DNA from: Pseudomonas sp. JQ170C
GTDB taxonomy: Bacteria > Pseudomonadota > Gammaproteobacteria > Pseudomonadales > Pseudomonadaceae
Reading direction: 5' to 3'
Assembly (NCBI RefSeq): GCF_035581345.1
Contig: NZ_CP141608.1
Span: forward strand, 1,692,001 to 1,756,000
Length of the DNA stretch: 64,000 bases
Shown here: positions 22,826-42,930 of the stretch, one piece after another
Layout: each line of letters opens with the position of its first letter
Position numbering within the stretch: the first letter of the stretch is position 1
Made by a program: the position numbers and the translations under genes
The notes under the pieces: model-generated
Database searches by the model: none
The model's input: the letters and a program-made list of their open reading frames with translations, nothing else
What the model was told of the DNA's origin: nothing

Positions 22826-22835
22826 TTGTATACAA
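22826..22835. promoter_or_regulatory. YTGTRTACAR operator at gcl
   Basis: The perfect palindrome TTGTATACAA lies 27 bases upstream of the gcl ATG and, by the predicted promoter, roughly 9-18 bases after the transcription start, a position suited to repression. The motif type is that of FCD-class GntR regulators. Confidence 0.75.
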
Positions 22836-22850
22836 ATGGCTTTTCGTCAG

Positions 22851-22880
22851 AGTGTATTCACGCCAGGCGACTCTGGTCAA
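22851..22880 (-). promoter_or_regulatory. Predicted sigma-70 promoter of gcl
   Basis: On the minus strand TTGACC (22880-22875) and TACACT (22856-22851) are separated by 18 bases, a good -35/-10 pair. Transcription would start near 22844, just before the TTGTATACAA operator. Confidence 0.55.
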
Positions 22881-22965
22881 TCCATTTTCATCAGCGATGG
22901 GTGCTTTCGTCGGGAAGCCCGCAAAAAAGGCTTTTCGTCAGAATTGGGTTATCGCGTTGAAAATA

Positions 22966-22975
22966 TTGTATACAA
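22966..22975. promoter_or_regulatory. YTGTRTACAR operator at the GlcG-like gene
   Basis: A second perfect TTGTATACAA, 81 bases upstream of the GlcG/HbpS-like start and in the same divergent intergenic region as the gcl site. It suggests that the two divergent units share one regulator. Confidence 0.7.
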
Positions 22976-23055
22976 AAAAATTCGCCATTGTGTTCTATTT
23001 GTTCTATTGATTTTTACACCTGCCCTCGGGCTCCTAACAACAAGAGGACCTTTCC

Positions 23056-23496
23056 ATGAACGCATTGACCTTGAAAGTCGCCGTCAGCCTGGTAAACGCC
23101 GCGCTGGTAGCGGGCCGCAAGATCAACTCTGCTCCCCTGACCGTGGCTGTACTCGATAGCGGCGGCCACCTGCTGGCGCTGCAACGCGAAGACGGCGCCA
23201 GCCTGCTGCGCCCGCAAGTGGCGATGGGCAAGGCCTGGGGGGCGATCGCCCTGGGCAAGGGCTCGCGCCTGCTGGCGCTGGACGCGCAGCAGCGCCCGGC
23301 GTTCTTCGCCGCGCTCAATGGTCTGGGGCAGAGCCCGCTGGTGCCGGCGCCGGGTGGCGTGCTGATCCGTAATCAGCAGGGCGTGGTGGTGGGGGCGATC
23401 GGTATCAGTGGCGATACCTCGGACATCGACGAGCAGTGCGCGATCAGTGCGATCGAAGAGGCGGGGTTGACGGCGGATGCCGGTGTAGCGGCTTAA
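23056..23496 (+). CDS. GlcG/HbpS family protein
   Basis: The 146-residue protein is a single GlcG/HbpS (DUF336) domain. It shows AVLDSGGHLLALQREDGAS (about residues 34-52), GKAWGAIALGKGSR (about 58-71), and the C-terminal GVLIRNQQGVVVGAIGISGD that forms the ligand pocket strand. Related proteins bind haem (Streptomyces HbpS) or accompany glycolate and propanediol genes (GlcG, PduO C-terminal), but no enzymatic role is settled. It is divergent from gcl and carries its own TTGTATACAA operator, so a role linked to glyoxylate metabolism is likely though undefined. No signal peptide. The RBS is AGAGGACC before the ATG. Confidence 0.88.
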   Translation: MNALTLKVAVSLVNAALVAGRKINSAPLTVAVLDSGGHLLALQREDGASLLRPQVAMGKAWGAIALGKGSRLLALDAQQRPAFFAALNGLGQSPLVPAPGGVLIRNQQGVVVGAIGISGDTSDIDEQCAISAIEEAGLTADAGVAA

Positions 23497-23500
23497 CCCT

Positions 23501-23622
23501 GTAGGAGCGGGCTTGCCCCGCGATGCGATGTGACTGTGGGATCGCTATCGCGGGGCAAGCCCGCTCCCACAACAAGCCCGCTCCCACTCCAAGCCCCGCT
23601 CCCACTGCAAGCCTGTCCTACC
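23501..23622. repeat. REP inverted pair followed by degenerate tandem half-units
   Basis: A full inverted REP pair (23501-23570) is followed by three imperfect direct copies of AAGCCCGCTCCCAC up to 23622. The tandem half-units lie between two convergent genes. Confidence 0.85.
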
Positions 23623-23625
23623 GTT

Positions 23626-24234
23626 TCAGGCGTCGGGCTCGCAGCCCTTGAGCACCAGGCGGATGATGGTCTGCGCGGCGGCTTCGTAATCGCTGTCATC
23701 GAGCTTGGCCTTGCCGGTGACCACCGAGATCTGCCAATCGAAATCAGCGTAGGTCTGGGTCGCTGCCCAGATGCTGAACATCAGGTGGTGCGGGTCGATC
23801 GGGGCGATCTGGCCGCGGTCGATCCAGCCCTGGATGCACTCGATGTTGTGCCGGGCCTGTTCGTTGAGCTGCTCGACCTGGCTCGGGCTCAGGTGCGGGG
23901 CACCGTGCATGATCTCGCTGGCAAATACCTTGGACGCAAAGGGCAAGTCGCGGGAGATGCGCACCTTGGAGCGTATGTACGCGCTCAATACCTCTTTGGC
24001 ATCACCGTCGGCATTGAACGGGGTGGATGCCTGCATGATCGGTTCGATGATGCTTTCCAGGACCTCGCGGTAGAGGTTTTCCTTGGATTTGAAGTAGTAG
24101 TAGACGTTGGGCTTGGGCAACCCGGCCTTGGCGGCGATGTCGCTGGTCTTGGTGGCGGCAAAGCCCTTGTCGGCAAATTCCTCGCTGGCCGCGCGCAGGA
24201 TCAGTTCTTTGTTGCGCTCGCGAATGCTGCTCAT
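23626..24234 (-). CDS. TetR family regulator, RutR-like
   Basis: The 202-residue protein has an N-terminal TetR helix-turn-helix (about residues 9-55, TSDIAAKAGLPKPNVYYYFKSKENLY). Its C-terminal domain resembles E. coli RutR in the segment GQIAPIDPHHLMFSIWAATQTYADF (split about 145-169; compared from memory). RutR senses uracil and also controls purine-degradation genes in E. coli. Here it sits between the glyoxylate and purine clusters and is divergent from the DUF808 gene. The start at 24234 is the TetR-like one (MSSIRERNK). It is the best local candidate to bind the TGAC-N6-GTCA palindromes, though none lies in its own promoter. Ligand unknown. Confidence 0.85.
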   Translation of the reverse strand: MSSIRERNKELILRAASEEFADKGFAATKTSDIAAKAGLPKPNVYYYFKSKENLYREVLESIIEPIMQASTPFNADGDAKEVLSAYIRSKVRISRDLPFASKVFASEIMHGAPHLSPSQVEQLNEQARHNIECIQGWIDRGQIAPIDPHHLMFSIWAATQTYADFDWQISVVTGKAKLDDSDYEAAAQTIIRLVLKGCEPDA

Positions 24235-24380
24235 GGTTGACGCTGTTCCTCGTGTCGGGCCGCAAGCGGCACCGGGCCTGAAAGGGCGGTCGCGCATGGT
24301 AGCACCGCGTTCGCAAAGGGCTCAAGGTGGCGACTTTGGGCTATGCTGAGCACCTCTTAACCCGCTGGAATCAGGCAAAC

Positions 24381-25289
24381 ATGGCAGGAAGCAGTCTTCT
24401 GGTGTTGATCGACGATATCGCCACGGTATTGGACGATGTCTCGGTGATGACCAAGGTCGCGGCGAAAAAGACCGCAGGGGTGCTGGGCGATGACCTGGCG
24501 CTCAATGCCCAGCAGGTCACGGGGGTTCGCGCCGAGCGGGAAATCCCGGTGGTCTGGGCGGTGGCCAAGGGCTCGTTCCTCAACAAACTGATCCTGGTGC
24601 CGGCGGCGCTGTTGATCAGTGCGTTCATCCCCTGGGCGGTGACCCCGCTGCTGATGATCGGCGGCGCCTTCCTGTGTTTCGAGGGCTTTGAAAAGCTCGC
24701 CCACAAGTTCTTGCACAGCAAGGCTGAAGACCAGGCCGATCAGGCGCAACGGATCGAGGCGGTGGCGGATCCTGCGGTTGATCTGGTTGTCCTGGAAAAG
24801 ACCAAGATCAAAGGCGCTATCCGTACCGACTTCATTCTTTCGGCAGAGATCATCGCCATCACCCTGGGTGCGGTCGCCAATGCACCACTGCCCCAGCAGA
24901 TCATCGTGCTGTCGGGCATTGCCATTGTCATGACCATCGGCGTGTATGGCCTGGTGGCGGGCATCGTCAAGCTCGATGACCTGGGCCTGTGGCTGACCCA
25001 GAAAGCGTCCCGCGCTGCCCAGGCGCTGGGCAACGGCATCCTGCGGGCGGCGCCGTACATGATGAAGAGCCTGTCTGTCATCGGTACTGCGGCGATGTTC
25101 CTGGTCGGTGGCGGGATTCTGGTACACGGCGTGGCGCCGTTGCATCACGCCATCGAAGCCTTCAGTGACGGGTGGGGCGGGGTGTGGATGGCGGCGTTGC
25201 TCAATGGCGGGGTGGGGATTGTCGCCGGGGCTGCGGTGCTGGCGGTTGTGACGATTGTCGGCAAGGTTTGGCGGGCTGTGAAGGGCTGA
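24381..25289 (+). CDS. DUF808 family inner-membrane protein
   Basis: The 302-residue protein starts with the family signature [26 protein letters not shown] (given here as residues about 6-31) and has around five hydrophobic helices (about 75-105, 160-195, 225-245, 260-275). E. coli YedI is a homologue of unknown function. The ATG at 24381 is used; the upstream in-frame extension lacks similarity. It is divergent from the RutR-like regulator with 146 bases between them. The link to the purine genes around it is positional only, and a role in transport or membrane stress is possible but unsupported. Confidence 0.85.
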
Positions 25290-25293
25290 AATG

Positions 25294-25349
25294 GATCGCG
25301 GGGCAAGCCCGCTCCTACCGGTGGGTAGGAGCGGGCTTGCCCCGGCGAT
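25294..25349. repeat. REP inverted pair
   Basis: GGGGCAAGCCCGCTCCTACC and GGTAGGAGCGGGCTTGCCCC almost adjacent, between the convergent DUF808 and channel genes; the second arm has a one-base insertion (CCCCGGCG). Confidence 0.9.
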
Positions 25350-25354
25350 TTTGA

Positions 25355-26143
25355 TCAGAAGTGAACCTTGACCAGGAAGCTGGCTGTGTTCTGGTCGGTA
25401 TCGAAGGCGTCGCTGTCCTTGATGCCGTACTTGTTCTTCCAGTAGTCGTATTCAAAACCGACGTACAGCTGCTTCTCGCCCCAGTTCAACGCCTTGCCCA
25501 GGTCGTATTTGACCTGTGGGTTGAAGTGCAGGTTGGCGTGGTAGGTGCCACGGCGGCTGGTGGCATCGTTGTCGACGACCCAGTCCATGAAGCCATCGAT
25601 GAGGATGTCGGACTTGCCCACCGGAATGGTGTACGACCAGACGGGGGTGATCTGCCAGACGTTGTCACCGGCACGGCTGCCCTCGGTGTTGCGCTGGTAG
25701 AAGTTCAGCTGGAAGTAATCGAAGCCCGGGATTGCCAGGTCGAAACCAGGACCGATCAGGTAGGACTCGGTGTCGCCCTCACCAAATTCGTAGGTCATGG
25801 CCAGCAGCACGTCCTTGATCGGACCGAACTCCAGCTTCTGGTCGAAAATCTTGCCAAACGACAGGCGCGGTTGAATCTCGCCGTAGTAGGTGTTCGGACC
25901 GTTGTTGAAGTCCTTGTCGCCGTTATAAAAAATCTTGTCGACGAAGATGAAGTTGTCGCCGTACTTCCAGGCATCGGCGTGCTCGAAGGTCACGGTCTGC
26001 TGGATTTCCGGGTTGACGGCAAAGTTCTTGCCCCACAGATAGGTCAGGCTGTTGTTCTGCCATTGCAGCAGATCACCGGCGGTGGCGGCGGTACTGGCCG
26101 CCAGCAGGCCGCCGGCGAGAATCAGGCTATTGGTAATGCGCAT
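25355..26143 (-). CDS. Tsx/OmpK-like outer-membrane channel 1
   Basis: The 262-residue protein has a signal peptide (cleaved after ATA, near residue 26) and a beta-barrel of the Tsx/OmpK nucleoside-specific channel family, beginning GDLLQWQNNSLTYLWG and ending with the barrel-terminal phenylalanine (VKVHF). Tsx-type channels admit nucleosides and related compounds across the outer membrane. Located beside a urate/xanthine permease, it is a good candidate for uptake of purine bases or nucleosides. It is about 70 percent similar by eye to the neighbouring paralogue. The start at 26143 is set by the signal peptide; the 62-codon upstream extension is not protein-like. Confidence 0.87.
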   Translation of the reverse strand: MRITNSLILAGGLLAASTAATAGDLLQWQNNSLTYLWGKNFAVNPEIQQTVTFEHADAWKYGDNFIFVDKIFYNGDKDFNNGPNTYYGEIQPRLSFGKIFDQKLEFGPIKDVLLAMTYEFGEGDTESYLIGPGFDLAIPGFDYFQLNFYQRNTEGSRAGDNVWQITPVWSYTIPVGKSDILIDGFMDWVVDNDATSRRGTYHANLHFNPQVKYDLGKALNWGEKQLYVGFEYDYWKNKYGIKDSDAFDTDQNTASFLVKVHF

Positions 26144-26503
26144 CGCTGTGTTGCTCCCTTGATTGAATCTGTTGTCGGTACTCTGAGCGGCACCGTTGGG
26201 TTCATTACTTGTCTTTCGAGTCAGTTTTTTTCGATTGGCCACAGCTAATTGGCAAGAGCTGCGCCAACTTTCCGGGTACGGCACAACAATCCTGCTCGAC
26301 GTCTTTCTGAACAGCTGAAAAAGGGACATCAGGTTGGCATCACGCCTGCCAACCGCCCGAATTCATTGACTGAGCGGTCAGCAAACGCGGGCAGAATCCA
26401 TCCTGCCCTATCGAGGGGGCGCGCAGATTACTGGCTTGCGCGCGGGTCCTCAAGTGCTCCGTCATGGAGCGGGTGTGGCTAAAACTGTGCGTTTGGTCAG
26501 GTT
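26144..26503. promoter_or_regulatory. 360-base regulatory gap between the two Tsx-like genes
   Basis: No gene is visible. The region holds a perfect hairpin (GGTTGGCA and TGCCAACC, 26332-26354) and one TGAC-N6-GTCA palindrome. It must contain the promoter of channel 1 and the end of the channel 2 transcript. The hairpin lacks a T-run on the minus strand. Confidence 0.55.
26367..26380. promoter_or_regulatory. TGAC-N6-GTCA palindrome (Tsx-like gene 1 promoter region)
   Basis: TGACTGAGCGGTCA, about 224 bases upstream of the channel 1 start. It shares extended sequence with the site at 32506 (13 of 15 positions). Confidence 0.55.
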
Positions 26504-27289
26504 TTAGAAGTGAACCTTCACCAGGGCACTGGTCACACTCTGGTTGGTATCGAGCCGTCCACTGTTCTCGATGCCGTATTTGTCTTTCCAGTAGCTGTAT
26601 TCAACACCCACGTACAACTGCTTGGCGCCCAGGTTCAGGGCCTTGCCCAGGTCGTATTTGACCTGTGGGTTGAATTGCAGGTTGGCGTGGTAGGTGCCGC
26701 GGCGGGTCTCGTCGTTGTCGACCACCCAGTCCATGTAGCCGTCGATGAGGATGTCGGATTTGCCCACCGGCACGGTGAAGGAGAAGGTCGGGGTAATCTG
26801 CCAGACACCATCACCCGGGCGGCTGCCCTCGGTGTTGCGCTGCATGATGTTGAGGGTGAAGTAGTTGAAGCCGGGAATCGCCAGGTCAAAGCCGGGGCCA
26901 ATCAGGTAGGCCTCGTTGTCGCCTTCGCCAGTCTCGTAGGTCATGGCGATCAATACGTCTTTGATCGGGCCGAATTCAAATTTGCGCTCGAAGATCTTGC
27001 CGAACGACAGGCGGGGGCTGAACTCGCTGTAGTAGGTGTTGCTGCCTTTGTTCCGGTCGGTGCCGCCGTTGTAGAAGATCTTGTCGACGAAGAAGAAGGT
27101 ATCGCCGTATTTCCACTTGTTGGCGTGTTCGAAGGTCACCGTCTGCTGAATTGCAGGGTTGACCTGGAAGTCCTTGCCGTAGAGATAGGTCAGGCTGTTG
27201 GTGTGCCAGAGCAGCAAGTCCCCTGCGGTGGCTGGCAAAGCGGCCAGCACACTGCTGCCCAGCAGAAGGGAAGTGGTGATGCCTTTCAT
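26504..27289 (-). CDS. Tsx/OmpK-like outer-membrane channel 2
   Basis: The 261-residue protein is a paralogue of the channel encoded at 25355-26143. It has a signal peptide ending near ATA (about residue 22), GDLLLWHTNSLTYLYG at the mature N-terminus, shared blocks such as FVDKIFYNG and DILIDGYMDWVVDND, and a terminal phenylalanine. The duplicate pair lies directly downstream of a urate/xanthine permease gene, so it probably forms the outer-membrane part of the same uptake route. Differences lie mostly in loop regions (for example DRNKGSNTYYSEFS against DFNNGPNTYYGEIQ), which could reflect different substrates. Confidence 0.87.
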   Translation of the reverse strand: MKGITTSLLLGSSVLAALPATAGDLLLWHTNSLTYLYGKDFQVNPAIQQTVTFEHANKWKYGDTFFFVDKIFYNGGTDRNKGSNTYYSEFSPRLSFGKIFERKFEFGPIKDVLIAMTYETGEGDNEAYLIGPGFDLAIPGFNYFTLNIMQRNTEGSRPGDGVWQITPTFSFTVPVGKSDILIDGYMDWVVDNDETRRGTYHANLQFNPQVKYDLGKALNLGAKQLYVGVEYSYWKDKYGIENSGRLDTNQSVTSALVKVHF

Positions 27290-27422
27290 GTTGTGATTCC
27301 CGGCATTGTTATTGTTGGTCTTGGGTTTTTCGGCGCGAGGCGCCCCGGCCGACCCGCTCCTACGGGTCGACGGTCCTGCGTATTGCTCGGGTGAAACCGG
27401 GCGGCATGCGCCGCCCAAAGAC

Positions 27423-28778
27423 TCAGTGCTGGTGGGCGGCGTCGTTGTGTGCTGCGCGCTCGGCGCCGCCCAGGATGTTGAACAACAAGTTGAGGATCAG
27501 GGCGCTGACGGTGGCCATGGCGATACCGCTGTGGGTGATCGGTTCCATCCACTGGGGCATCTGCGAGAAGAACTCGGGACGCACCACCGGGATCAGGCCC
27601 ATGCCGACGCTGACGGCGACCAGCAGCTGGTTGCGGCGGTCGGCGATGTCGGCTTCCTGGAGGATCTTGATTCCGGTCGCCGCGACCATGCCGAACATCG
27701 CGATCGAGGCGCCACCCAGTACCGCAGGCGGGATCGAGGCGATGAGGAACGCGGCCTTGGGCAGCAGGCTGAGCAGGATCAGGAAACCGCCGGCAACCAC
27801 GGTGACGTAGCGGCAACGCACGCCGGTCATTTGCACCAGGCCGATGTTCTGGGCGAACGAGGAGTGGGTGAAGGTGTTGAAGAAGCCCGCCACGAAGGAT
27901 GCACCGGCGTCGCACATCAGGCCGCGGCGCAGCATGCCCGGGGTGACTTCACGGTCGGTGACCTTGCCCAGGGCCAGAAACATGCCGGTGGACTCGACGA
28001 AGATGATCACCACCACCAGGCACATCGACAGGATCGGCGCGAGGCTGAAGGTCGGCATGCCGAAGTGCAGCGGGGTCACCACTTGCACCCACGGCGCGTC
28101 GTCCAGGCCGGAGAGGTCGACCATGCCGATGGAGCCGGCGAGGATGTAGCCCAGGCCCATGCCGATCAGTACCGAGACGTTGACCCAGAAACCGCGCATG
28201 AAGCGATTGACCAGCAGGATGGTGGCCAGCACCAGAGCTGCAACGGTCAGGTAGACGGGAGAGCCGAAGGTTTCGGCTTCGGCGCCACCGCCGGCCCAGT
28301 TGACGGCAACCGGGAACAGCGAAAGGCCGATCGAGGTGATGACCGTGCCGGTCACCAGCGGTGGGAAGAAACGCACCACCTTGGACATGAACGGGGCGAT
28401 CAGCATGCCGAAGAAACCGGCTGCGATGGTCGCACCAAAGATACCTTGCAGGCCGACACCGGGCATCCCGGCCATGGCCACCATGCTGCCGACAGCAGCA
28501 AAGCTTGCACCCATCATGACTGGCATGCGGATGCCAACTGCGCCAATGCCGAACGACTGGACGATGGTGGCGACACCAGCGACCAGCAGGTCGGCATTGA
28601 TAAGGAAAGCGACTTCTTCACGAGAAAGGCCGGCGGCCTGGCCAATGATCAGTGGCACGGCGATCGCGCCTCCGTACATCAGCAAGACATGTTGTAGACC
28701 CACCAGGAACAGTTGGAGCATTGGCAGTGGCTGTCGTGGGGGCGCAACAGGGATGTACGCCTTGCGTGACTCGGACAT
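27423..28778 (-). CDS. uacT: NCS2 family urate/xanthine permease
   Basis: The 451-residue protein has 14 predicted helices and NCS2 hallmarks: QHVLLMYGGAIAVPLIIG in the first helix, with the conserved histidine, FVESTGMFLALGKVTDREV near residue 250 with the substrate-binding Glu, and the signature PAVLGGASIAMFGMVAATG near residue 345. It imports urate or xanthine with a cation across the inner membrane. Its position immediately downstream of urate hydroxylase puuD, on the same strand, favours urate as main substrate. The ATG at 28778 starts MSESRK. A second, AzgA-type NCS2 gene occurs about 5 kb away. Confidence 0.9.
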   Translation of the reverse strand: MSESRKAYIPVAPPRQPLPMLQLFLVGLQHVLLMYGGAIAVPLIIGQAAGLSREEVAFLINADLLVAGVATIVQSFGIGAVGIRMPVMMGASFAAVGSMVAMAGMPGVGLQGIFGATIAAGFFGMLIAPFMSKVVRFFPPLVTGTVITSIGLSLFPVAVNWAGGGAEAETFGSPVYLTVAALVLATILLVNRFMRGFWVNVSVLIGMGLGYILAGSIGMVDLSGLDDAPWVQVVTPLHFGMPTFSLAPILSMCLVVVIIFVESTGMFLALGKVTDREVTPGMLRRGLMCDAGASFVAGFFNTFTHSSFAQNIGLVQMTGVRCRYVTVVAGGFLILLSLLPKAAFLIASIPPAVLGGASIAMFGMVAATGIKILQEADIADRRNQLLVAVSVGMGLIPVVRPEFFSQMPQWMEPITHSGIAMATVSALILNLLFNILGGAERAAHNDAAHQH

Positions 28779-30891: not shown

Positions 30892-31407
30892 TTAAAGTTG
30901 CAGCAGGCGGAACAGGGCAATCAGGTTGATCTGCGCCAGTGCTTCCTTGAACTCGGCCTCGACCGAGTTGTGGATGCGCTTTTCGAACGAGGCGAGGATC
31001 TGGTGCCGGTTGCTGCCTTTTACCGCCATGATGAACGGGAACTTGAACTTGGCCTTGTAGGCGTCGTTGAGCTCGGTGAAGCGCTCGAACTCTTCGGCGG
31101 TGCACTGGTGGATACCGGCGCCGGCCTGTTCATTGGTGCTCGATTCGGTCAGTTCACCCTGGATGGCGGCCTTGCCGGCGAGGTCCGGGTGAGCGTTGAT
31201 CAGTGCCAGTTGGGCGTCGTGCTCGGCGCTGAGCAGGATGTCGCTCATGCGCTGGTGCAGGGCTTCGATCTGGTCGACTTCCTGCAACTGGCCCAGGTCG
31301 TAGGCCTTCTCGGCAACCCAGGGCGAGTGTTCGTAGATGTCGGCAAAGGCTTCGACGAACGCAGCGCGCTCCAGGGACGAAGGCTTGAGGGTCTTGAAAG
31401 CGGTCAT
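30892..31407 (-). CDS. uraD: OHCU decarboxylase
   Basis: The 171-residue protein decarboxylates 2-oxo-4-hydroxy-4-carboxy-5-ureidoimidazoline to (S)-allantoin. It shows the UraD family blocks VEAFADIYEHSPWVAEKAYD, the active-site histidine in INAHPDLAGKAA (about residues 71-81), STNEQAGAG and FPFIMAVKGSNRHQIL. Length is as expected for a stand-alone enzyme; in some species it is fused to the allantoinase PuuE. Its ATG overlaps the puuE stop by one base (TAATG), giving tight translational coupling. Confidence 0.95.
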   Translation of the reverse strand: MTAFKTLKPSSLERAAFVEAFADIYEHSPWVAEKAYDLGQLQEVDQIEALHQRMSDILLSAEHDAQLALINAHPDLAGKAAIQGELTESSTNEQAGAGIHQCTAEEFERFTELNDAYKAKFKFPFIMAVKGSNRHQILASFEKRIHNSVEAEFKEALAQINLIALFRLLQL

Positions 31408-32333
31408 TAGACGTTCTCGGCTTTGTAAGGGTGGGTGGCATGCCAGTGACGGGCGATGTCCACGCGCCGGGCGAACCAGACCTGATCGTGGCTCTTGGCG
31501 TATTCGACGAAGCGCTTGAGTGCAGCCAGGCGGGCCGGACGGCCGACCAGGCGGCAGTGCAGGCCGATCGACAGCATCTTCGGTGCTTCGGCGCCTTCTT
31601 CGTACAGCACGTCAAAGGCGTCCTTGAGGTATTGGAAGAACTGCTCGCCGCAGTTGAAGCCCTGGACCTGGGTGAAGCGCATGTCGTTGGTGTCCAGGGT
31701 GTACGGGATCACCAGGTGCGGCTTGCCGGTCGGGTTGTTCGGTTCCCAGTAGGGCAGGTCGTCGTCGTAGGTATCGCTGTCGTAGAGGAAGCCGCCTTCC
31801 TCCATCACCAGGCGACGGGTGTTCGGGCCGGTGCGGCCGGTGTACCAGCCGACAGGGCGTTCGCCGGTCAGTTCGGTGAGGATGCGGATGGCTTCGAGCA
31901 TGTGCTCGCGCTCCTGGGCCTCGTCCATGTACTGGTAGTCGATCCAGCGGTAGCCGTGGCTGCAGATTTCGTGGCCGGCTTCGGCCATGGCGCGGATCGC
32001 GTCCGGGTGACGCTGGGCGGCCATCGCGACGGCAAACACCGTCAGCGGGACGCCGGTGTCCTTGAACAGCTTGAGCAGGCGCCAGACACCGGCGCGGCTG
32101 CCGTACTCGTAGAGCGATTCCATGCTCATGTTACGAGCGCCCTGCAGGGGCTGGGCGGCGACCATTTCCGAGAGAAAGGCTTCCGATTCCTTGTCTCCGT
32201 GAAGAATGTTGCGCTCGCCACCTTCTTCGTAATTGAGCACGAAAGACAAAGCGATGCGGGCATTCCCCGGCCAGCGCGGATGGGGTGGGGTATTGCCGTA
32301 ACCGATCAGGTCGCGAGGATAATCAGCGCTCAC
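31407..32333 (-). CDS. puuE: Allantoinase PuuE (polysaccharide-deacetylase fold)
   Basis: The 308-residue protein hydrolyses allantoin to allantoate and is the cofactor-independent, NodB-like allantoinase, unrelated to metal-dependent AllB. Markers are RDLIGYGNTPPHPRWPG at the N-terminus, SFVLNYEEGGERNILHGD, EICSHGYRWIDYQ near residue 125 and the C-terminal FARRVDIARHWHATHP. The GTG at 32333 is chosen because AAGGAAG lies 8 bases before it and it gives the family's usual start; the 21-codon upstream extension is arginine-rich and unlikely. First gene of the minus-strand unit puuE-uraD-allA-puuD, with operators upstream. Confidence 0.94.
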   Translation of the reverse strand: MSADYPRDLIGYGNTPPHPRWPGNARIALSFVLNYEEGGERNILHGDKESEAFLSEMVAAQPLQGARNMSMESLYEYGSRAGVWRLLKLFKDTGVPLTVFAVAMAAQRHPDAIRAMAEAGHEICSHGYRWIDYQYMDEAQEREHMLEAIRILTELTGERPVGWYTGRTGPNTRRLVMEEGGFLYDSDTYDDDLPYWEPNNPTGKPHLVIPYTLDTNDMRFTQVQGFNCGEQFFQYLKDAFDVLYEEGAEAPKMLSIGLHCRLVGRPARLAALKRFVEYAKSHDQVWFARRVDIARHWHATHPYKAENV

Positions 32334-32409
32334 TGCAGTCTTCCTTCTTATACGTGTCAACGGAGGGCGTGGCGCCCGAGGTAGGGTATCGGCCACGTCG
32401 ATGAGGTGA

Positions 32410-32419
32410 TTGTATACAA
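32410..32419. promoter_or_regulatory. YTGTRTACAR operator upstream of puuE
   Basis: Perfect TTGTATACAA, 77 bases upstream of the puuE GTG and overlapping its proposed -10 element. Confidence 0.7.
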
Positions 32420-32613: not shown

Positions 32614-32623
32614 TTGTGTACAA
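32614..32623. promoter_or_regulatory. YTGTRTACAR operator upstream of uraH
   Basis: TTGTGTACAA, about 97 bases upstream of the uraH start, matching the shared motif with one allowed purine change. Confidence 0.6.
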
Positions 32624-32719: not shown

Positions 32720-33073
32720 ATGGGACGTTTGACCACGCATGTACTGGATGCCGCTCATGGCTGCCCTGGCAGCTCGATCAAAGTCGAGCTGTACCGGGTC
32801 GAAGGCCAGCAGCTGGAACTGGTGAACACCACCCTGACCAACAGCGATGGCCGTTGCGACGCGCCGCTGCTGCAAGGCGACGACTACCGCAGCGGTGTGT
32901 ACCAACTGCAGTTCAGCGCCGGCGACTACTACCGTGCTCGTGGCGTGCAACTGCCAGAGCCTGCATTTCTTGACGTGGTGGTACTGCGATTCGGCATCAG
33001 CGCCGAGCAGGATCACTACCACGTACCACTGTTGATCTCGCCGTACAGTTACTCGACCTATCGCGGAAGCTAG
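32720..33073 (+). CDS. uraH: 5-Hydroxyisourate hydrolase (transthyretin-like)
   Basis: The 117-residue protein hydrolyses 5-hydroxyisourate, the PuuD product, to OHCU. It has the transthyretin-related signature LTTHVLDAAHG at the N-terminus (catalytic histidine) and ends in the diagnostic tetrapeptide YRGS, which separates the enzyme from true transthyretin. There is no periplasmic signal, so it acts in the cytoplasm. Divergent from puuE-uraD, whose product UraD takes the next step; both share the regulatory region at 32334-32719. A strong intrinsic terminator follows. Confidence 0.96.
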   Translation: MGRLTTHVLDAAHGCPGSSIKVELYRVEGQQLELVNTTLTNSDGRCDAPLLQGDDYRSGVYQLQFSAGDYYRARGVQLPEPAFLDVVVLRFGISAEQDHYHVPLLISPYSYSTYRGS

Positions 33074-33251: not shown

Positions 33252-34601
33252 TTACAGGAATACAAACTTGGCGATGAAGATCGCTGTCAGTACCCACAGG
33301 CTCGCCGAGATCTCGCTGAAGCGACCGGTACCGGCCTTGAGCACCACGTAGGTGATAAAGCCCAGGGCGATGCCGTCGGCGACCGAGAAGGTCAGCGGCA
33401 TCATGATCGCTGTGACGATCGCCGGGATGCTGTCGGTGGCTTCATCCCAGTTGATATGAGCCATGCTGCCCATCATCAGCATCGCTACGTAGATCAGTGC
33501 ACCTGCGGTGGCGTAGGCAGGAATCATTCCGGCCAGCGGGGCAAAGAACATCGCGGCAACAAAGAACAGGCCCACCACGACTGCCGTCAGGCCCGTACGA
33601 CCACCCGCGGCAACCCCTGCAGCACTCTCCACATAACTGGTGACCGGCGGTACACCCACCACGGCACCGAATACGCTGGACGCACTGTCAGCCTTCAACG
33701 CGCGCGAGAGGTTCTCGATGCGCCCGTCGGCATTCACCAGGTTGGCCCGCTGGGCCACACCCATCAGGGTGCCGGCCGTGTCGAACATGTGCACGAACAG
33801 GAAGGCAAACACCACGGCGATCATGCTGACGTTGAACACGCCGGCCACGTCCATCGCCATCCAGGTCGGTGCCAGGCTCGGTGGCAGCGAGAACAGCCCG
33901 CCGTATTCCACCAGGCCCAGGCCCCAGCCGGCGAGGGTGACGCTGATGATGCTGATCAGGATCGCACCGAACACCCGGTGGTAGCTGAGCACGGCAATCA
34001 TCAGGAAGCAGATGGCTGCCAGCAGCGGGCCAGGCTCGTGCAACGAACCAAGCTTGATCAGGGTGGCCGGGCTGTCGACGACAATTCCAGCTGTTTTAAG
34101 ACCGATCAGTCCGAGGAACAATCCGACGCCGGCACCCATTGCATGACGCAGGCTTACGGGAATGCTGTTGAGCAGCCATTCACGCACCCGCGACAAAGTC
34201 AGCAACATGAACAACACCCCGGAGACGAACACTGCGCCCAGTGCAGCTTCCCAGGTGTAGCCCATGGTCCCGACCACGGTATAGGTAAAGAAGGCGTTGA
34301 GCCCCATGCCGGGTGCCAGGCCGACTGGCCAGTTGGCATACAGGCCCATCAACAGACAGCCCAGGGCGGCAGCGATACAGGTGGCGACGAAGGCCGCTCC
34401 GTGATCGATGCCGGCATCGGCCATGATGTTGGGGTTGACGAAGATGATGTAGGCCATGGTGATGAACGTGGTAAGGCCCGCGATCATCTCGGTCTTGACG
34501 GTGGTGCCATGTAGCTTGAGTTTGAAAATCCGCTCCAGCCAGCTCGTTTCGAGCGGTGGGGCAAGATCCAGCGTAGGGGCTTCGGATTTGCGGCTTTCCA
34601 C
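33252..34601 (-). CDS. NCS2 family AzgA-type purine permease
   Basis: The 449-residue protein has about 13 helices and AzgA-subfamily marks: GLTTFITMAYIIFVNPNIM near residue 45, GMGLNAFFTYTVVG near 97-110, FLFVHMFDTAGTLMGVAQRA near 270 and SYVESAAGVAAGGRTGLTA near 325. AzgA/PbuG members take up adenine, guanine or hypoxanthine by proton symport. The neighbours guaD and xdhABC would process imported guanine or hypoxanthine. It is divergent from gclR across a region with three candidate operators. It differs in subfamily from the urate/xanthine permease at 27423-28778, so the two cover different bases. Confidence 0.92.
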   Translation of the reverse strand: MESRKSEAPTLDLAPPLETSWLERIFKLKLHGTTVKTEMIAGLTTFITMAYIIFVNPNIMADAGIDHGAAFVATCIAAALGCLLMGLYANWPVGLAPGMGLNAFFTYTVVGTMGYTWEAALGAVFVSGVLFMLLTLSRVREWLLNSIPVSLRHAMGAGVGLFLGLIGLKTAGIVVDSPATLIKLGSLHEPGPLLAAICFLMIAVLSYHRVFGAILISIISVTLAGWGLGLVEYGGLFSLPPSLAPTWMAMDVAGVFNVSMIAVVFAFLFVHMFDTAGTLMGVAQRANLVNADGRIENLSRALKADSASSVFGAVVGVPPVTSYVESAAGVAAGGRTGLTAVVVGLFFVAAMFFAPLAGMIPAYATAGALIYVAMLMMGSMAHINWDEATDSIPAIVTAIMMPLTFSVADGIALGFITYVVLKAGTGRFSEISASLWVLTAIFIAKFVFL

Positions 34602-34705: not shown

Positions 34706-34719
34706 TGACTTCTGAGTCA
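34706..34719. promoter_or_regulatory. TGAC-N6-GTCA palindrome (AzgA permease/gclR)
   Basis: TGACTTCTGAGTCA. With the following GGAAGTT it resembles the xdhA-upstream site at 42754 in 16 of 21 positions. Confidence 0.5.
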
Positions 34720-34745: not shown

Positions 34746-34755
34746 TTGTATACAA
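34746..34755. promoter_or_regulatory. YTGTRTACAR operator (AzgA permease/gclR)
   Basis: TTGTATACAA inside the longer palindrome TTTGTATACAAA, midway between the divergent genes. Confidence 0.7.
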
Positions 34756-34843: not shown

Positions 34844-34853
34844 CTGTGTACAA
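34844..34853. promoter_or_regulatory. YTGTRTACAR operator near gclR
   Basis: CTGTGTACAA, 107 bases upstream of the gclR ATG; one arm is imperfect. Confidence 0.5.
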
Positions 34854-34960: not shown

Positions 34961-35725
34961 ATGAACGAACAGCTGCAACCTCTCAAGAAACCAGTGCGTA
35001 CCGGCAAGGCCGGGCGCAGCGGAACCCAGGACGATATCGTCTACGCGCACATTTTCGAGGCCATTCTCGAACAGCGCCTGGCGCCGGGTACCAAGTTGAG
35101 CGAGGAAGCCCTGGGTGAGATCTTTGGTGTCAGTCGCACCATCATTCGTCGCGCCTTGTCGCGCCTGGCCCATGAAAGCGTGGTGCTGCTGCGGCCCAAC
35201 CGCGGTGCGGTAGTGGCCAGCCCTACGGTCGAGGAAGCCCGCCAGGTGTTTTTCTCCCGCCGCATGGTCGAGCGTGCCATCACCGAGTTGGCCGTCGAAC
35301 ACGCCACCGCCGAACAGCTCAACGAACTGCGCCAGATGGTGCGTGAAGAACGCGACAGCTTCTCGCGTGGTGATCGCGGCGCCGGCATCCGTCTCTCTGG
35401 CGAGTTCCACCTGAAACTGGCCGAAGCAGCGGGCAATGCGCCCCTGATCAGCTTCCAGCGCAGCCTGGTATCGCAAACCTCGCTGATCATCGCCCAGTAC
35501 GAAAGCGGCAACCGCTCGCACTGCTCCTACGATGAACACATGCAACTGATCGACGCCATCGAGGCCCGTGATGTGAATCAGGCAGTCAGCCTGATGATGC
35601 ATCACATGGATCACATCGACAGCAAACTCAACCTCGACGAAGAAAGCGCCTCGGACGATCTGCATGCGGTGTTCTCGCACCTGCTGCAGACCAAGAAGCG
35701 CAGCTCGGTTCCGGTCAAAGGCTGA
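34961..35725 (+). CDS. gclR: GntR family (FCD/FadR subfamily) regulator, GclR
   Basis: The 254-residue protein has a winged helix-turn-helix (about residues 25-90, LSEEALGEIFGVSRTIIRRALSRLAHE) and an FCD effector domain with the metal/ligand histidines in EFHLKLAEAAGN and SCYDEH-type segments (here HCSYDEHMQL and MMHHMDHID). In P. putida KT2440 the GntR gene at this position is GclR, the repressor of the gcl cluster; loss of it allows growth on ethylene glycol (from memory). Its promoter region carries two copies of the palindrome found at gcl, which supports it as the binding protein. The ATG at 34961 follows the non-conserved upstream extension. Confidence 0.88.
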   Translation: MNEQLQPLKKPVRTGKAGRSGTQDDIVYAHIFEAILEQRLAPGTKLSEEALGEIFGVSRTIIRRALSRLAHESVVLLRPNRGAVVASPTVEEARQVFFSRRMVERAITELAVEHATAEQLNELRQMVREERDSFSRGDRGAGIRLSGEFHLKLAEAAGNAPLISFQRSLVSQTSLIIAQYESGNRSHCSYDEHMQLIDAIEARDVNQAVSLMMHHMDHIDSKLNLDEESASDDLHAVFSHLLQTKKRSSVPVKG

Positions 35726-37901: not shown

Positions 37902-37911
37902 AGGGCTCTCG

Positions 37912-38757
37912 TCATATGGCTTGGCTGCGCCGTGACGGCGGCAGCAATTGGGCAATAGGGCCGGCGTTGGCAGCGGTGTCGTGCTGGCCGAAGCTGGCGT
38001 TGTAGGTGGCAATGATTTCTGCGGCGATGGACACGGCGATCTCGATCGGTAACTTGCCCTTGACCTCGGCCAGTCCCATCGGGCAACGCATGCGTTGCAT
38101 CCGCTCTTCGCTGAAGCCGCGATCGCGCAGGCGATGCTCGAACTTGACCCGTTTGGTCTTCGAGCCGATCAGGCCGAACCAGGAAAAATCGTTGCGCTTG
38201 AGGATCGCGGCGGTCAGCTCGAGATCCAGCTGGTGATTGTGGGTCATCACAATGCAGTAACTGCCGACGGGCAGGTCGTCGACTTCATCGACCGGCTCTT
38301 CGCTGACAATCTTGCTGACCCCTTGCGGGATGTACTCAGGAAATTCCTGCTCGCGCGAGTCGATCCAGCGGACCCGGCAGGGCAGCGCGGCGAGCAAGGG
38401 TACCAGAGCGCGGCCGACATGGCCTGCACCGAATACCGCGATTTGCGCCTGCACCTGCCCCATCGGCTCGAACAACAGCACGGTGGCGCCGCCGCAGCAC
38501 TGGCCCAGGCTAGCACCCAGGCTGAAGCGCTCCAGGTGAGGGGACTCGCGACGCTCCTCGAGCATCTGCCGGGCGATCTTCATCGCCTTGAATTCCAGGT
38601 GCCCGCCGCCGATGGTGTCGAACAGCTGCGAAGCGCTGACCACCATCTTGGAGCCGGCATTGCGCGGGGTCGAGCCGCGCTCTTCGATGATGGTCACCAG
38701 TACGCAGGGTTCGCCGCGGGCTTGCAGGTCGGCGAGGGCGTTGATCCAGGTGTGCAT
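37912..38757 (-). CDS. xdhC: Xanthine dehydrogenase accessory protein XdhC
   Basis: The 281-residue protein is the maturation factor that loads sulfurated molybdenum cofactor into XdhB. It has the N-terminal CoxI-type region (TIIEERGSTPRNAGSKM, about residues 23-39) and a C-terminal Rossmann-like domain (VFGAGHVGRALVPLLAAL, about 107-124). Length is as usual for XdhC. Third gene of xdhA-xdhB-xdhC-guaD, separated from xdhB by a REP element. Confidence 0.95.
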   Translation of the reverse strand: MHTWINALADLQARGEPCVLVTIIEERGSTPRNAGSKMVVSASQLFDTIGGGHLEFKAMKIARQMLEERRESPHLERFSLGASLGQCCGGATVLLFEPMGQVQAQIAVFGAGHVGRALVPLLAALPCRVRWIDSREQEFPEYIPQGVSKIVSEEPVDEVDDLPVGSYCIVMTHNHQLDLELTAAILKRNDFSWFGLIGSKTKRVKFEHRLRDRGFSEERMQRMRCPMGLAEVKGKLPIEIAVSIAAEIIATYNASFGQHDTAANAGPIAQLLPPSRRSQAI

Positions 38758-38780
38758 AGTGTGTTGCCTCTTTGGTGCGT

Positions 38781-38829
38781 TATCGCAGCGCAAGCCCGCC
38801 CCCAGGCAGGAGCGGGCTTGCCCCGCGAT
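38781..38829. repeat. REP inverted pair, first arm degenerate
   Basis: GCAAGCCCGCCCCCAGG and GGAGCGGGCTTGCCCC between xdhB and xdhC, inside an operon. Confidence 0.8.
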
Positions 38830-38835
38830 TGACCC

Positions 38836-41232
38836 TTACGGTGTCACGGTCTCGACTTCAGCAGCCGGCTGCTGCGCCGCTACCGCCTTGCGCATCTGCT
38901 CGCAGCCCCACAGAACCCGCTCCGGCGTCGAAGGCGCGTCGATCTTCGGCTGCACGCGGTAATCGGCAAGGCTCGCGACGGCGTCCTTGATCGCACACCA
39001 CGCCGCGATACCCAGCATGAACGGCGGTTCGCCCACGGCTTTGGAATGGAATACCGTGTCTTCCGGGTTCTTGCGGTTCTCCACCAGCTTGACCCGCAGA
39101 TCAATCGGCATGTCGGCCACGGCCGGGATCTTGTAGCTGGCCGGGCCGTTGGTCATCAGCTTGCCCTTGGCGTTCCACACCAGTTCTTCGGTGGTCAGCC
39201 AGCCCATGCCCTGGATAAAGCCGCCCTCGACCTGACCGATGTCGATGGCCGGGTTCAGCGAGGCGCCGACGTCATGCAGGATGTCGGTGCGCAGCATCTT
39301 GTACTCGCCGGTCAGGGTGTCGACGATCACCTCGGCACAGGCTGCGCCAAAGGCAAAGTAGTAGAACGGCCGGCCACGGGCCTGGCTACGGTCGTAGTAG
39401 ATCTTCGGCGTCTTGTAGAAGCCGGTGCTCGACAGCGACATCTGGGCAAAGTAGGCCTGCTGCACCAGCGACTCGAAGCTGAGGATTTCATCGCGCACGC
39501 GCACATGGCCGTTGCGGAATTCGACGTCTTCCTCGCTCACTTTGTACTGGCGAGCGGCGAATTCGGTCAGGCGCTTCTTGAGGATTTCAGCAGCGTTCTG
39601 GGCCGCCTTGCCGTTCAGGTCGGCACCGCTGGACGCTGCGGTTGGCGAGGTGTTGGGCACCTTGTCGGTGTTGGTGGCGGTGATCTGAATGCGCTGGAAA
39701 TCAACCTGGAACACTTCGGCGACAACCTGGGCGACCTTGGTGTTCAGGCCCTGGCCCATCTCGGTGCCGCCGTGGTTCAGGTGGATGCTGCCGTCGGTGT
39801 AGATGTGCACCAGGGCGCCCGCCTGGTTGAGGAAGCTGGCGGTAAACGAAATGCCGAACTTCACCGGGGTCAGCGCCAGGCCTTTTTTCAGGATCGGGCT
39901 GTTGGCGTTGAAGCGGCGGATCGACTCGCGGCGTTGCTGGTAGTCACTGCTGGCTTCGAGCTCGGCCGTGATTTCTTCGAGCATGTTGTGCTCGACGGTC
40001 TGGTAGTAGTGGGTGACGTTGCGCTCGGTCTTGCCGTAGTAGTTGGCCTTGCGCACCGCCAGCGGGTCCAGCACCAGGTGGCGGGCGATATGGTCCATCA
40101 CCTCTTCGATGGCGACCATGCCCTGCGGGCCGCCAAAGCCGCGGTAGGCGGTGTTGGAGGCGGTGTTGGTCTTGCAGCGGTGACCGTGAATGGTGGCATC
40201 GCCCAGGTAGTAGGCGTTGTCGGAGTGGAACATCGCCCGGTCGACGATCGAGGCCGACAAGTCTGGCGAGCAGCCGCAGTTGCCGGCCAGGTCAAAGTTG
40301 ATCCCGTGCAGGCGGCCGGTGTCGTCGAAACCGACGTCGTACTCGATGTAGAACGGGTGACGCTTGCCGGTCATCAGCATGTCTTCGACCCGCGGCAGGC
40401 GCATCTTGGTCGGCTGGCCGGTCAGGTGGGCAATCACTGCGCACAGGCAGGCGGGGCTGGCGGCCTGGGTTTCCTTGCCGCCGAAGCCGCCACCCATGCG
40501 GCGCATGTCGACGACGATCTTGTTCATCGACACATCGAGTACTTCGGCCACCAGTTTCTGCACTTCGGTGGGGTTCTGGGTGGAGCAGTAGACGATCATG
40601 CCGCCGTCTTCGGTGGGCATTACCGAAGAGATCTGGGTTTCCAGGTAGAAGTGCTCCTGGCCGCCGATGTGCAGGGTGCCCTGCAGGCGGTGCGGCGCGC
40701 TGGCCAGGGCGCTGACCGAGTCGCCGCGCTGGTGGGTGTGGCTGTCGAGGACGAAGTGCTTCTTGCGCAGGGCCTCGACCACGTCCAGAACCGGCTCCAG
40801 GTCTTCGTACTCGATGATCGCGGCCATGGCGGCGCGGCGGGCGGTATCCAGGTCACGGGCGGCGACCGCGACCACCGGCTGGCCGACGAACTCGACCTTG
40901 TCGATGGCCAGCAGCGGGTCACCGGGCAGCAGCGGGCCGATGTCTTTGAGACCCGGCACGTCTTCGTGGGTAATGGCAATGCGTACGCCTTCAAAGGCGT
41001 AGCAGGGGCTGGTGTCGATGCTCAGCACCCGGGCGTGGGCCCGGTCGGACAGGCGCGCATACACGTGCAGCTGATTGGGGAACTCCAGGCGGTCATCGAT
41101 ATACACCGCTTCACCCGACACATGCTTGTCGGCGCTGTCGTGCTTGATGCTGGCGCCCACACCGGTGGTCAGGCCCTGGCTGAACAGTTCGGCCATTTCG
41201 GCCTGGCTTTTGGGGGCGTGATGGTTAGACAT
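38836..41232 (-). CDS. xdhB: Xanthine dehydrogenase large (molybdopterin) subunit
   Basis: The 798-residue subunit carries the molybdenum cofactor and oxidises hypoxanthine and xanthine to urate. Recognisable are the N-terminal GVGASIKHDSADKHVSGEAVYIDD, the cofactor-binding MGGGFGGKETQA near residue 246, AYRGFGGPQG near 362, GTEMGQGLNTK near 490 and GEPPFMLG near 742, with the catalytic-glutamate region. Length matches proteobacterial XdhB (about 780-800). Its start overlaps the xdhA stop region by 8 bases. Confidence 0.96.
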   Translation of the reverse strand: MSNHHAPKSQAEMAELFSQGLTTGVGASIKHDSADKHVSGEAVYIDDRLEFPNQLHVYARLSDRAHARVLSIDTSPCYAFEGVRIAITHEDVPGLKDIGPLLPGDPLLAIDKVEFVGQPVVAVAARDLDTARRAAMAAIIEYEDLEPVLDVVEALRKKHFVLDSHTHQRGDSVSALASAPHRLQGTLHIGGQEHFYLETQISSVMPTEDGGMIVYCSTQNPTEVQKLVAEVLDVSMNKIVVDMRRMGGGFGGKETQAASPACLCAVIAHLTGQPTKMRLPRVEDMLMTGKRHPFYIEYDVGFDDTGRLHGINFDLAGNCGCSPDLSASIVDRAMFHSDNAYYLGDATIHGHRCKTNTASNTAYRGFGGPQGMVAIEEVMDHIARHLVLDPLAVRKANYYGKTERNVTHYYQTVEHNMLEEITAELEASSDYQQRRESIRRFNANSPILKKGLALTPVKFGISFTASFLNQAGALVHIYTDGSIHLNHGGTEMGQGLNTKVAQVVAEVFQVDFQRIQITATNTDKVPNTSPTAASSGADLNGKAAQNAAEILKKRLTEFAARQYKVSEEDVEFRNGHVRVRDEILSFESLVQQAYFAQMSLSSTGFYKTPKIYYDRSQARGRPFYYFAFGAACAEVIVDTLTGEYKMLRTDILHDVGASLNPAIDIGQVEGGFIQGMGWLTTEELVWNAKGKLMTNGPASYKIPAVADMPIDLRVKLVENRKNPEDTVFHSKAVGEPPFMLGIAAWCAIKDAVASLADYRVQPKIDAPSTPERVLWGCEQMRKAVAAQQPAAEVETVTP

Positions 41233-42679
41233 AAGCGGTCACCCGAGTCTCGATGTGCGGCGATTGCAGTTCGATGAAGTATTTGCGCAACAGGTTCTGG
41301 GCACCGAGCAGGCGGTACTCCTTGCTGGCGCGGAAGTCCGACAGCGGCGTGAAGTCTTCGGCCAGGGCCTGGCAGGCGCGCTCGATGCTGGCCTGGTTCC
41401 AGGGTTTGCCGACCAGGGCCGCTTCACAGGCACGGGCCCGTTTCGGTATCGCGGCCATGCCGCCGAAGGCCATGCGGGCAGCCTGGACCACGCCGTTTTC
41501 GATGCGCAGGTTGAAGGCGGCGCACACGGCGGAAATATCGTCATCCAGTCGTTTGGACACCTTGTAGGCGCGGAACGTCCAGTCGGCCTTGGCCCGTGGA
41601 ACGATGATTTTCTCGATGAACTCGCTTTCCTGGTGCGCAGTGATGCGGTAGTCGATGAAGTAGTCTTCAAGGGCCAGGGTGCGGGTGCTGTCGCCCTTGC
41701 GCAGGACAATCTGCGCATCCAGTGCAATCAGCAGGGGCGGGGAGTCGCCGATGGGCGAGGCGTTGCCGATATTGCCGCCCAGGGTGCCCTGGTTACGGAT
41801 CTGCAGCGAGGCGAAGCGGTGGAGCAATTCGCCGAAGTCGGGGTATTCGCGGCTCAGGGCGTCGTAGCAGTCGGTCAGCGGGGTGGCTGCGCCGATTTCC
41901 AGGTGATCGTCTTGCGTTTCGATACGCTTGAGTTCGGCGACGTTGCCCACATAGATCATGACCGGCAGGGTCTTGTGGAACTGGGTCACTTCCAGTGCCA
42001 GGTCGGTACCACCGGCCAGCAGGCGCGCTTCAGGGTGAGAGCCATAGAGGTCGGCAAGATCGGCCACGGTCAGCGGCACCAGGCAGCGCTTGTCGCCGCT
42101 GTTGAGTTCACCGGTTTCGCTGGGTGCGATGGCTTTGAGGCGGGCGATGGTCTGGGCTTCGCCATTGTCGAACTGGTCAGGCCTGGCCTGGCAGCACGAT
42201 TGCTCGGCGGCGGCGAGGATGGGGCGGTAGCCGGTGCAGCGGCAGAGGTTGCCAGCCAGGGCTTCCTGGGCTTTGTGCAGGTCGGGTGCATCGCTGTTCT
42301 TTTGCAGGGCAAACAGCGACATGACGAAACCTGGGGTGCAGAAGCCGCACTGGGAACCATGGCAATCGGCCATGGCCTGTTGCACGCTGTGCAGTTGGCC
42401 CTGATGCTTGAGGCCTTCGACGCTGATCAATTGCTTGCCGTGCAGTGACGAGACAAAAGTCAGGCACGAGTTGAGGCTGCGATAGCGAATGTGCTCGCGG
42501 CCATCATCGTCTTCGCTCAATTCGCCGACCACCACGGTACAGGCGCCGCAATCGCCGCTGGCGCAGCCTTCCTTGGTACCGGATTTGCCCAGATGCTCGC
42601 GCAGGTATTGGAGCACGGTCAGGTTGGGGTCCAGAGCATGCTCACTGCGCAGCTCCTGGTTGAGTAGAAACTGGATCAC
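41225..42679 (-). CDS. xdhA: Xanthine dehydrogenase small (iron-sulfur/FAD) subunit
   Basis: The 484-residue subunit passes electrons from the molybdenum centre to NAD+. It has a plant-ferredoxin [2Fe-2S] site (GCASGDCGACTV, about residues 38-49), a second [2Fe-2S] domain (SQCGFCTPG about 108-116 and GNLCRCTGYRPI about 142-153), and a C-terminal FAD domain with LAGGTDLALEV near 222 and GNIGNASPIGDSPP near 305. First gene of the operon; its promoter region holds a strong TGAC-N6-GTCA palindrome and a CTGTACACAG site beside the second GntR gene. Confidence 0.96.
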   Translation of the reverse strand: MIQFLLNQELRSEHALDPNLTVLQYLREHLGKSGTKEGCASGDCGACTVVVGELSEDDDGREHIRYRSLNSCLTFVSSLHGKQLISVEGLKHQGQLHSVQQAMADCHGSQCGFCTPGFVMSLFALQKNSDAPDLHKAQEALAGNLCRCTGYRPILAAAEQSCCQARPDQFDNGEAQTIARLKAIAPSETGELNSGDKRCLVPLTVADLADLYGSHPEARLLAGGTDLALEVTQFHKTLPVMIYVGNVAELKRIETQDDHLEIGAATPLTDCYDALSREYPDFGELLHRFASLQIRNQGTLGGNIGNASPIGDSPPLLIALDAQIVLRKGDSTRTLALEDYFIDYRITAHQESEFIEKIIVPRAKADWTFRAYKVSKRLDDDISAVCAAFNLRIENGVVQAARMAFGGMAAIPKRARACEAALVGKPWNQASIERACQALAEDFTPLSDFRASKEYRLLGAQNLLRKYFIELQSPHIETRVTAYV

Positions 42680-42753
42680 GGGAAGGCCTCACACGCGGTT
42701 TATTGTTGTTGAGCGGACTGTAAGCAGACTTGATTTTCAGGTCAACAATTTTC

Positions 42754-42767
42754 TGACCTTCGGGTCA
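42754..42767. promoter_or_regulatory. TGAC-N6-GTCA palindrome upstream of xdhA
   Basis: TGACCTTCGGGTCA, extended by CT before and GG after, lies 75 bases upstream of the xdhA start. A nearby inverted half (AGGTCAACA) precedes it. This is the most symmetric of the five sites. Confidence 0.6.
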
Positions 42768-42920
42768 GGAAATTTTCCACGCCATTTCCCACCTGCTACA
42801 AGCGCTCTTCTTATAGAGCATAGTTCCCTTCGCCTACGCCGAATCTTTTGCGCCATTCGTGCCAACTTCTGCGCCCTGGCCCCTGCGCGGCGCCGGGGCA
42901 AGTGCGCTACAATCCGCCCC

Positions 42921-42930
42921 CTGTACACAG
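42921..42930. promoter_or_regulatory. YTGTRTACAR-type operator upstream of the second GntR gene
   Basis: CTGTACACAG reads CTGTGTACAG on the other strand, one base from the 34844 site. It lies 24 bases before the GntR start, suited to autoregulation. Confidence 0.5.

Follow-up and report, generated by a model that had tools for sequence, protein, structure and literature searches.

The GntR-type repressors UgmR (PA1520) of Pseudomonas aeruginosa and GclR (PP_4283) of P. putida are tied to purine genes, and uric acid is reported as inducer (PMC12694930). UgmR is described, with reference to Xu et al. 2022, as a protein that binds ahead of gcl and of the allantoin genes PA1513-PA1518 and represses both, a repression which is relieved by uric acid (PMC12694930). 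In P. putida, deletion of gclR leads to growth on ethylene glycol (PMC11166783), and CbrB has been located at PP_4283 in vivo (PMC6296734). As far as its available text goes, the account of UgmR describes neither operator pairs nor their spacing nor a loop (PMC12694930). Such an arrangement is described for Atu1419, an FCD repressor of the VanR subfamily from Agrobacterium fabrum which recognizes a 10-bp palindrome with the core TGTATACA: the tetramer reads ATGTATACAT, a single intergenic region holds two sites at a distance of 190 bp, and a loop has been proposed (PMC7797058). Here we consider the palindrome YTGTRTACAR and the GclR protein in a stretch of 64,000 nucleotides from Pseudomonas sp. 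JQ170C (contig NZ_CP141608.1, positions 1,692,001 to 1,756,000), which is called the window in the following and to which all positions refer unless the genome is named. We consider it likely that six copies of this palindrome are GclR operators, paired in three divergent intergenic regions, that a further permease has an operator of the same type, and that repression takes place by means of a loop. The core of this regulon was previously known, and the operator map, the second permease and the evolutionary evidence for looping are what is added to it here.

All seven copies of YTGTRTACAR reported in the preliminary description of this region are present, and they amount to 11 strand matches, whereas 100 shuffles that preserved dinucleotides gave 0.17 strand matches on average and in no case as many as 11. 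No enrichment is seen for the looser core TGTNNACA (9 matches, with 9.96 expected). In the whole genome (5.94 Mb) the motif occupies 22 distinct places (30 strand matches), and 7 of these places lie within these 20 kb; the reversed control pattern gave 8 strand matches. According to a GC3-based filter, 8 of the 15 remaining places fall in open frames, one of them (locus L004) being an antisense frame that was set aside. The seven sites differ in meaning when relatives are compared, as six are conserved and the seventh is not. Judged by this conservation, the six are operators, located two each in the gcl/glcG, puuE/uraH and azgA/gclR regions. They are listed here together with the genes that they flank:

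21024..22799, minus strand: gcl, glyoxylate carboligase, followed by hyi, glxR and a glycerate kinase-like gene
22826..22835: putative GclR operator, gcl-proximal, TTGTATACAA (motif match; conserved at 28 of 29 gcl copies)
22966..22975: putative GclR operator, gcl-distal and glcG-proximal, TTGTATACAA (motif match and conservation)
23056..23496, plus strand: GlcG-like gene divergent from gcl (one weak NCBIfam match; named as in the preliminary description)
31407..32396, minus strand: puuE, allantoinase, followed by uraD, allA and puuD
32410..32419: putative GclR operator at puuE, TTGTATACAA (identity of at least 97% at every base of the 56-sequence alignment)
32614..32623: putative GclR operator at uraH, TTGTGTACAA (every base at least 97% identical in the same 56 sequences)
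32720..33073, plus strand: uraH, hydroxyisourate hydrolase
33252..34601, minus strand: azgA, purine permease (PF00860; the name azgA is that of the preliminary description)
34746..34755: putative GclR operator at azgA, TTGTATACAA (between the predicted -35 and -10)
34844..34853: putative GclR operator in the gclR promoter, of the autoregulatory kind, CTGTGTACAA (motif match and conservation in the alignment)
34961..35725, plus strand: gclR, GntR/FCD repressor of the GclR/UgmR type (PF00392, PF07729)

The alignments were drawn from the best 80 Pseudomonas-type loci around gclR, which provided 56 sequences for the puuE/uraH region and 67 for the azgA/gclR region. In the latter, the bases of both sites are at least 97% identical, save one central base of the azgA site, which is A or G. 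Searching the flanks of the fluorescens-group loci L089-L102 for exact matches gives the gclR-proximal site alone, because azgA and puuE are located elsewhere. As for gcl, 29 genomes were searched, one of which had no gcl match; two exact copies of TTGTATACAA, which begin at distances of 26-28 and 144-169 bp from the start of gcl, were found at 28 of the 29 gcl copies (28 genomes). The sole copy without GclR sites (L131 in genome G020) adjoins a LysR gene, and the other gcl copy of that genome has both sites. A LysR-type setting is likewise described for P. umsongensis GO16, where one of two gcl genes lies beside ttdR (PMC13357446). Across the genus, the exact-pair patterns were found in 266 of 398 genomes for gcl and in 206 of 298 for puuE, with no match to the reversed control in any genome. 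The predicted gcl promoter has its -35 at 22880 and its -10 ending at 22851, so that the gcl-proximal operator would lie at about +10 to +19. Promoter prediction gave no promoter in the puuE/uraH region.

The protein encoded by gclR has the GntR DNA-binding and FCD domains, its gene lies beside purine genes, and the operators lie at gcl and at allantoin genes, as is the case for UgmR and GclR; the identification follows the gene order and two published accounts (PMC13357446 and PMC12694930). The host is close to P. vranovensis, in whose strain DSM 16006 the protein is 100% identical, and an ortholog was found in 21 of the 59 genomes of a family-wide sample. GclR is best taken as the regulator because all 21 of these orthologs carry the site in their own promoter (13 exact, 4 as TTGTGCACAA and 4 as TTGTGTACAC, one letter off), also where the fetched locus has no azgA. 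It would then be the protein bound at these sites in this species. The azgA site is present in 12/12 orthologs, once as TTGTACACAA, and in 0/4 paralogs of azgA. A second xanthine permease, located outside the window (L004, genome positions 751823-753250), is likely a further member of the regulon: 15 of 16 orthologs have TTGTATACAA at -68 to -84, the 16th has GTGTATACAA, and the site was found in 0/3 paralogs. The main texts of the P. aeruginosa HT-SELEX and ChIP-seq papers were searched by terms, and a PA1520 motif was not found in them. The single regulon for purine breakdown and glyoxylate assimilation put forward in the preliminary description is supported for gcl/glcG, puuE/uraH, azgA and gclR, which share one type of operator, and is not supported for xdhA and a second GntR gene, which are discussed below. 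The control wider than that known for gcl which it proposed is already in print for UgmR (PMC12694930). 

Two other occurrences of the motif are worth recording. A copy of TTGTATACAA lies ahead of a dihydrolipoyl dehydrogenase gene (L021, L301-L306) in 6 of 7 orthologs, with an unclear tie to purines; in the host, this site adjoins a cyclopropane fatty acid synthase gene. The sequence TTGTATACAG lies more than 400 bp upstream of a gene pair for an 8-oxoguanine deaminase and a permease (L014, L298, L300) in 2 of 3 genomes.

The palindromes could also be read by another or an additional GntR protein, for example a homologue of PA0120 or a paralogue of GclR, with the sites being shared by two proteins, which we consider somewhat unlikely. 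The host has a GclR paralogue that is about 50% identical and has a near-identical recognition helix, and PA0120 has a SELEX site at gcl (PMC12694930). Moreover, three of the four genomes that have puuE and no GclR match (E 1e-70) retain both puuE sites (G055, G079 and the fragmented G105). The retention of sites in such genomes and the existence of a paralogue in the host together make site sharing possible, and this counts against GclR as the only reader of the palindromes. However, the cut-off of 1e-70 may miss diverged GclR orthologues, and G105 is in 650 contigs. The fourth of these genomes (G072) has a single degenerate site, and 7 of the 11 genomes without a GclR match are also without puuE, so that their missing sites are uninformative. 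In favour of GclR, the site in its own promoter is present in all 21 orthologs and in 0/3 paralogues. The paralogue gene (L253 1423-2112, near genome position 4114593) adjoins another GntR-like gene and a transporter-like frame.

The distance between the two operators of a pair is far from free to vary. At gcl, the spacing in 69 loci is 118, 127-130 or 138-141 bp. At puuE/uraH, the spacing in 131 loci is 178-184, 192-196, 203-208, 216, 225 or 289 bp, and the classes 185-191, 197-202 and 209-215 are empty. Changes of at least 4 bp were counted on trees of the flanking genes, and a change was taken to be in phase when it differed from a multiple of 10.75 bp by no more than a quarter turn, a criterion that 44% of sizes 4-30 would pass. 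We took such a helical-phase constraint as the mark of a loop. At puuE/uraH, 28 of the 29 inferred changes are in phase, compared with 9/20 and 7/20 for the operator-to-gene distances that served as controls. The outcome is similar with unordered costs (32/36, controls 13/30 and 13/25) and with linear costs (28/28, controls 9/19 and 6/20). At gcl, all 9 changes are in phase (controls 0/0 and 2/3). For the loci that were chosen without a spacing window, the counts are 11/11 to 14/14 at puuE, depending on the cost function, and 4/4 at gcl, with hardly any changes in the controls. The sizes of the changes fit a helical repeat of 10.5-11 bp best, and the fitted value is 10.8-10.9 bp. This can be compared with the loops of the Lac repressor, for which repression in vivo depends on helical phase with a repeat near 11 bp (fitted values of 10.95-11.60; PMC1762422, Table 1), although that repressor is from an unrelated family and the spacings studied there were constructed, whereas those considered here are natural variation. 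The results suggest that the operator pairs were kept in helical register while their distance changed mostly by whole turns. Since a loop between two operators requires that their phase be kept, DNA looping is in turn suggested.

The composition of the locus sets bears on these counts. A first count for puuE gave 24/24; for 60 of its loci, the selection had required a start-to-start distance of 182-212. To these were added 27 genomes, namely the 11 of 119 without a GclR match and 16 with GclR but neither exact pair. Of the 27, 20 have puuE. Two sites were found in 17 of them, with spacings that include several at 178-181 and one each at 225 and 289, and their addition brought the count to 28/29, or to 32/36 with unordered costs; the other three loci, with one site (L311, L317, L325), are outside the count. 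L132 and L151 were dropped, as a single site lies between their extrapolated gene starts. Of the 69 gcl loci, 40 were selected by a spacing window of 115-145 and 29 without one. 

The same data can be explained in a different way, in which GclR dimers act singly, no loop is formed, and the whole-turn steps are due to some other constraint, such as a bending protein between the sites or the phase of the divergent promoters. Indeed, the gcl and azgA operators are on or near their own predicted promoters, and the pair spacing correlates with the intergenic length (r 0.46 and 0.51), a growing distance of the kind that Suvorova et al. 2015 read in GntR divergons as independent sites (PMC4494728). 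Single operators also exist, at the second permease in most orthologs and at gclR where the fetched locus is without azgA. We nevertheless find this explanation unlikely, considering that the operator-to-gene distances at puuE/uraH are unphased and the operator-to-operator distance is not, and that a promoter-phase constraint would need to act through the operators.

Several further points, in addition to the published interpretation of such divergons, weigh against repression by a looping GclR. With unordered costs, 4 of the 36 changes at puuE are out of phase, and one genome group at 178-181 and one genome at 289 stand apart in the puuE spacing. When only changes of at least 6 bp are considered, one of the puuE controls reaches 6/9 in phase, and the control changes at gcl are too few for a comparison. 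In 37 of the first 118 relatives the puuE pair is outside the search window or missing; 26 of the 37 were inspected, and eleven, all with a gcl pair, lie outside the spacing counts. For seven spacings that were outside the fit (azgA/gclR, and puuE of other genera), the agreement with whole turns is no more than moderate (mean cosine 0.59, P 0.012), and the spacing data leave the absolute phase, that is whole turns or a common offset, unfixed. In six genomes the second permease has an extra site (1 exact, 5 imperfect) 102-103 bp away, which is out of phase. As for the published data, allantoin induces gcl by a route that is not thought to be UgmR (PMC12694930), and in P. umsongensis GO16 deletion of the GclR homologue left growth with ethylene glycol, terephthalate and glucose unaffected, with the qualifier that it is the ttdR-linked gcl which serves for ethylene glycol in that strain (PMC13357446).

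If GclR does loop DNA, it would be expected to do so as a tetramer. VanR-type FCD domains have six helices, and the structural model of GclR (m584afb7efc82, mean pLDDT 80.6) has six confidently predicted FCD helices after residue 90, followed by a low-confidence seventh. The model matches Atu1419 among other FCD regulators, with 21-26% identity in the structural match. The palindromes of the window have the core TGTATACA and occur two per divergent region, as could be expected for a repressor of the Atu1419 type. The two systems differ in pathway and effector, and the tetramer has been shown for Atu1419 (PMC7797058), whereas the evidence for a loop is evolutionary in the present case. In the mechanism that we propose, two GclR dimers joined as a tetramer would occupy both operators of a pair when the inducer is absent, and the roughly 100 to 225 bp between the operators would be looped, shutting both divergent promoters. 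Uric acid would free GclR, and uptake, ring degradation and glyoxylate assimilation would open together. The sites, their conservation, the members and the phasing that enter into this proposal were observed here, and the repression of gcl, the binding in P. aeruginosa and the role of uric acid come from the literature. We lean, with some reserve, towards the more general view that GclR/UgmR is a looping tetramer clamping three divergent purine and glyoxylate promoters, and that selection has kept its operators in register genus-wide while the spacing changed by one, two or more whole turns. No report on the spacing of GclR/UgmR operators was found in the literature searched, in which subscription papers were mostly beyond reach.

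The seventh palindrome lies in a region with the following features:

41225..42679, minus strand: xdhA (named as in the preliminary description and from the adjacent xdhC)
42921..42930: seventh palindrome, CTGTACACAG, regarded as a chance match (motif in 2 of 72 relatives)
42954..43613, plus strand: second GntR/FCD gene, AlkR-like (match to 9isw, E 3.1e-92)

The preliminary description had this region as part of the regulon, in which the second GntR would perhaps be a partner of GclR. In favour of a regulon that includes xdhA by way of the seventh site, there is the exact match at 42921, and the two relatives that have the motif there have it as TTGTACACAG. However, the sequences upstream of the second GntR gene in 72 relatives contain TTGTGCACAG in 9 cases, TTGTGCCCAG in 26 and other sequences in 35, leaving 70 without the motif, and xdhA has a conserved palindrome of its own in 72/72 loci (see below). 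The structure matched by the second GntR, 9isw, is titled AlkR (VanR). Because the motif is so rarely found there and the neighbouring GntR protein matches AlkR, the palindrome at 42921 is probably a chance match. We accordingly rejected xdhA as a member by YTGTRTACAR and, given its match to AlkR, the second GntR as partner of GclR; a regulon reaching xdhA through this site is highly improbable.

A second palindrome, TGACY-N4-RGTCA, occurs at three places in the window, where 0.17 matches are expected. Its copies are listed below together with a candidate regulator, the locus counts including a few genomes counted twice:

42754..42767: TGACCTTCGGGTCA, directly upstream of the predicted xdhA -35 (72/72 loci)
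34706..34719: TGACTTCTGAGTCA, upstream of azgA (93/94 loci)
26367..26380: TGACTGAGCGGTCA, upstream of a Tsx-like porin gene (35/48 loci)
23626..24297, minus strand: RutR-like TetR regulator (matches to RutR structures, E 5e-39)

This palindrome is nearly absent at the second Tsx-like gene (1/49 loci) and absent at the pbuX-type permease of the window (0/51). Extended by GGAA, it is found at two genomic places only, azgA and xdhA. The RutR box of E. coli has the form TGACC-N4-GGTCA. The TetR gene beside gcl, located between gcl/glcG and the purine genes, matches RutR structures, but its product falls below both NCBIfam cut-offs for RutR (175.6 vs 368 and 152.8 vs 230 bits). This RutR-like protein is a candidate binder of TGACY-N4-RGTCA. 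A literature search for the RutR box found no paper. In P. aeruginosa, PA1504, a TetR gene whose product has a RutR-type domain, has been named as a possible player in the control of gcl by allantoin (PMC12694930). The second palindrome may have a bearing on the UgmR-independent induction of gcl by allantoin, and it offers a regulator to seek for xdhA and the purine-uptake genes.

P. putida acquired growth on ethylene glycol, a monomer of PET, through the loss of GclR (PMC11166783), which gives the shutting of gcl by this repressor a practical interest. If GclR forms a DNA loop, expression could be adjusted simply by way of the distal operator and of the spacing. Should the reading be true, the spacing of operators in wild genomes would reveal a repression loop without experiment, and looking for phase-locked spacing in genome sequences would test for such loops in the GntR family at little cost. 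Double sites of GntR regulators whose distance grows with the intergenic region, which have been read as independent, may then be loops.

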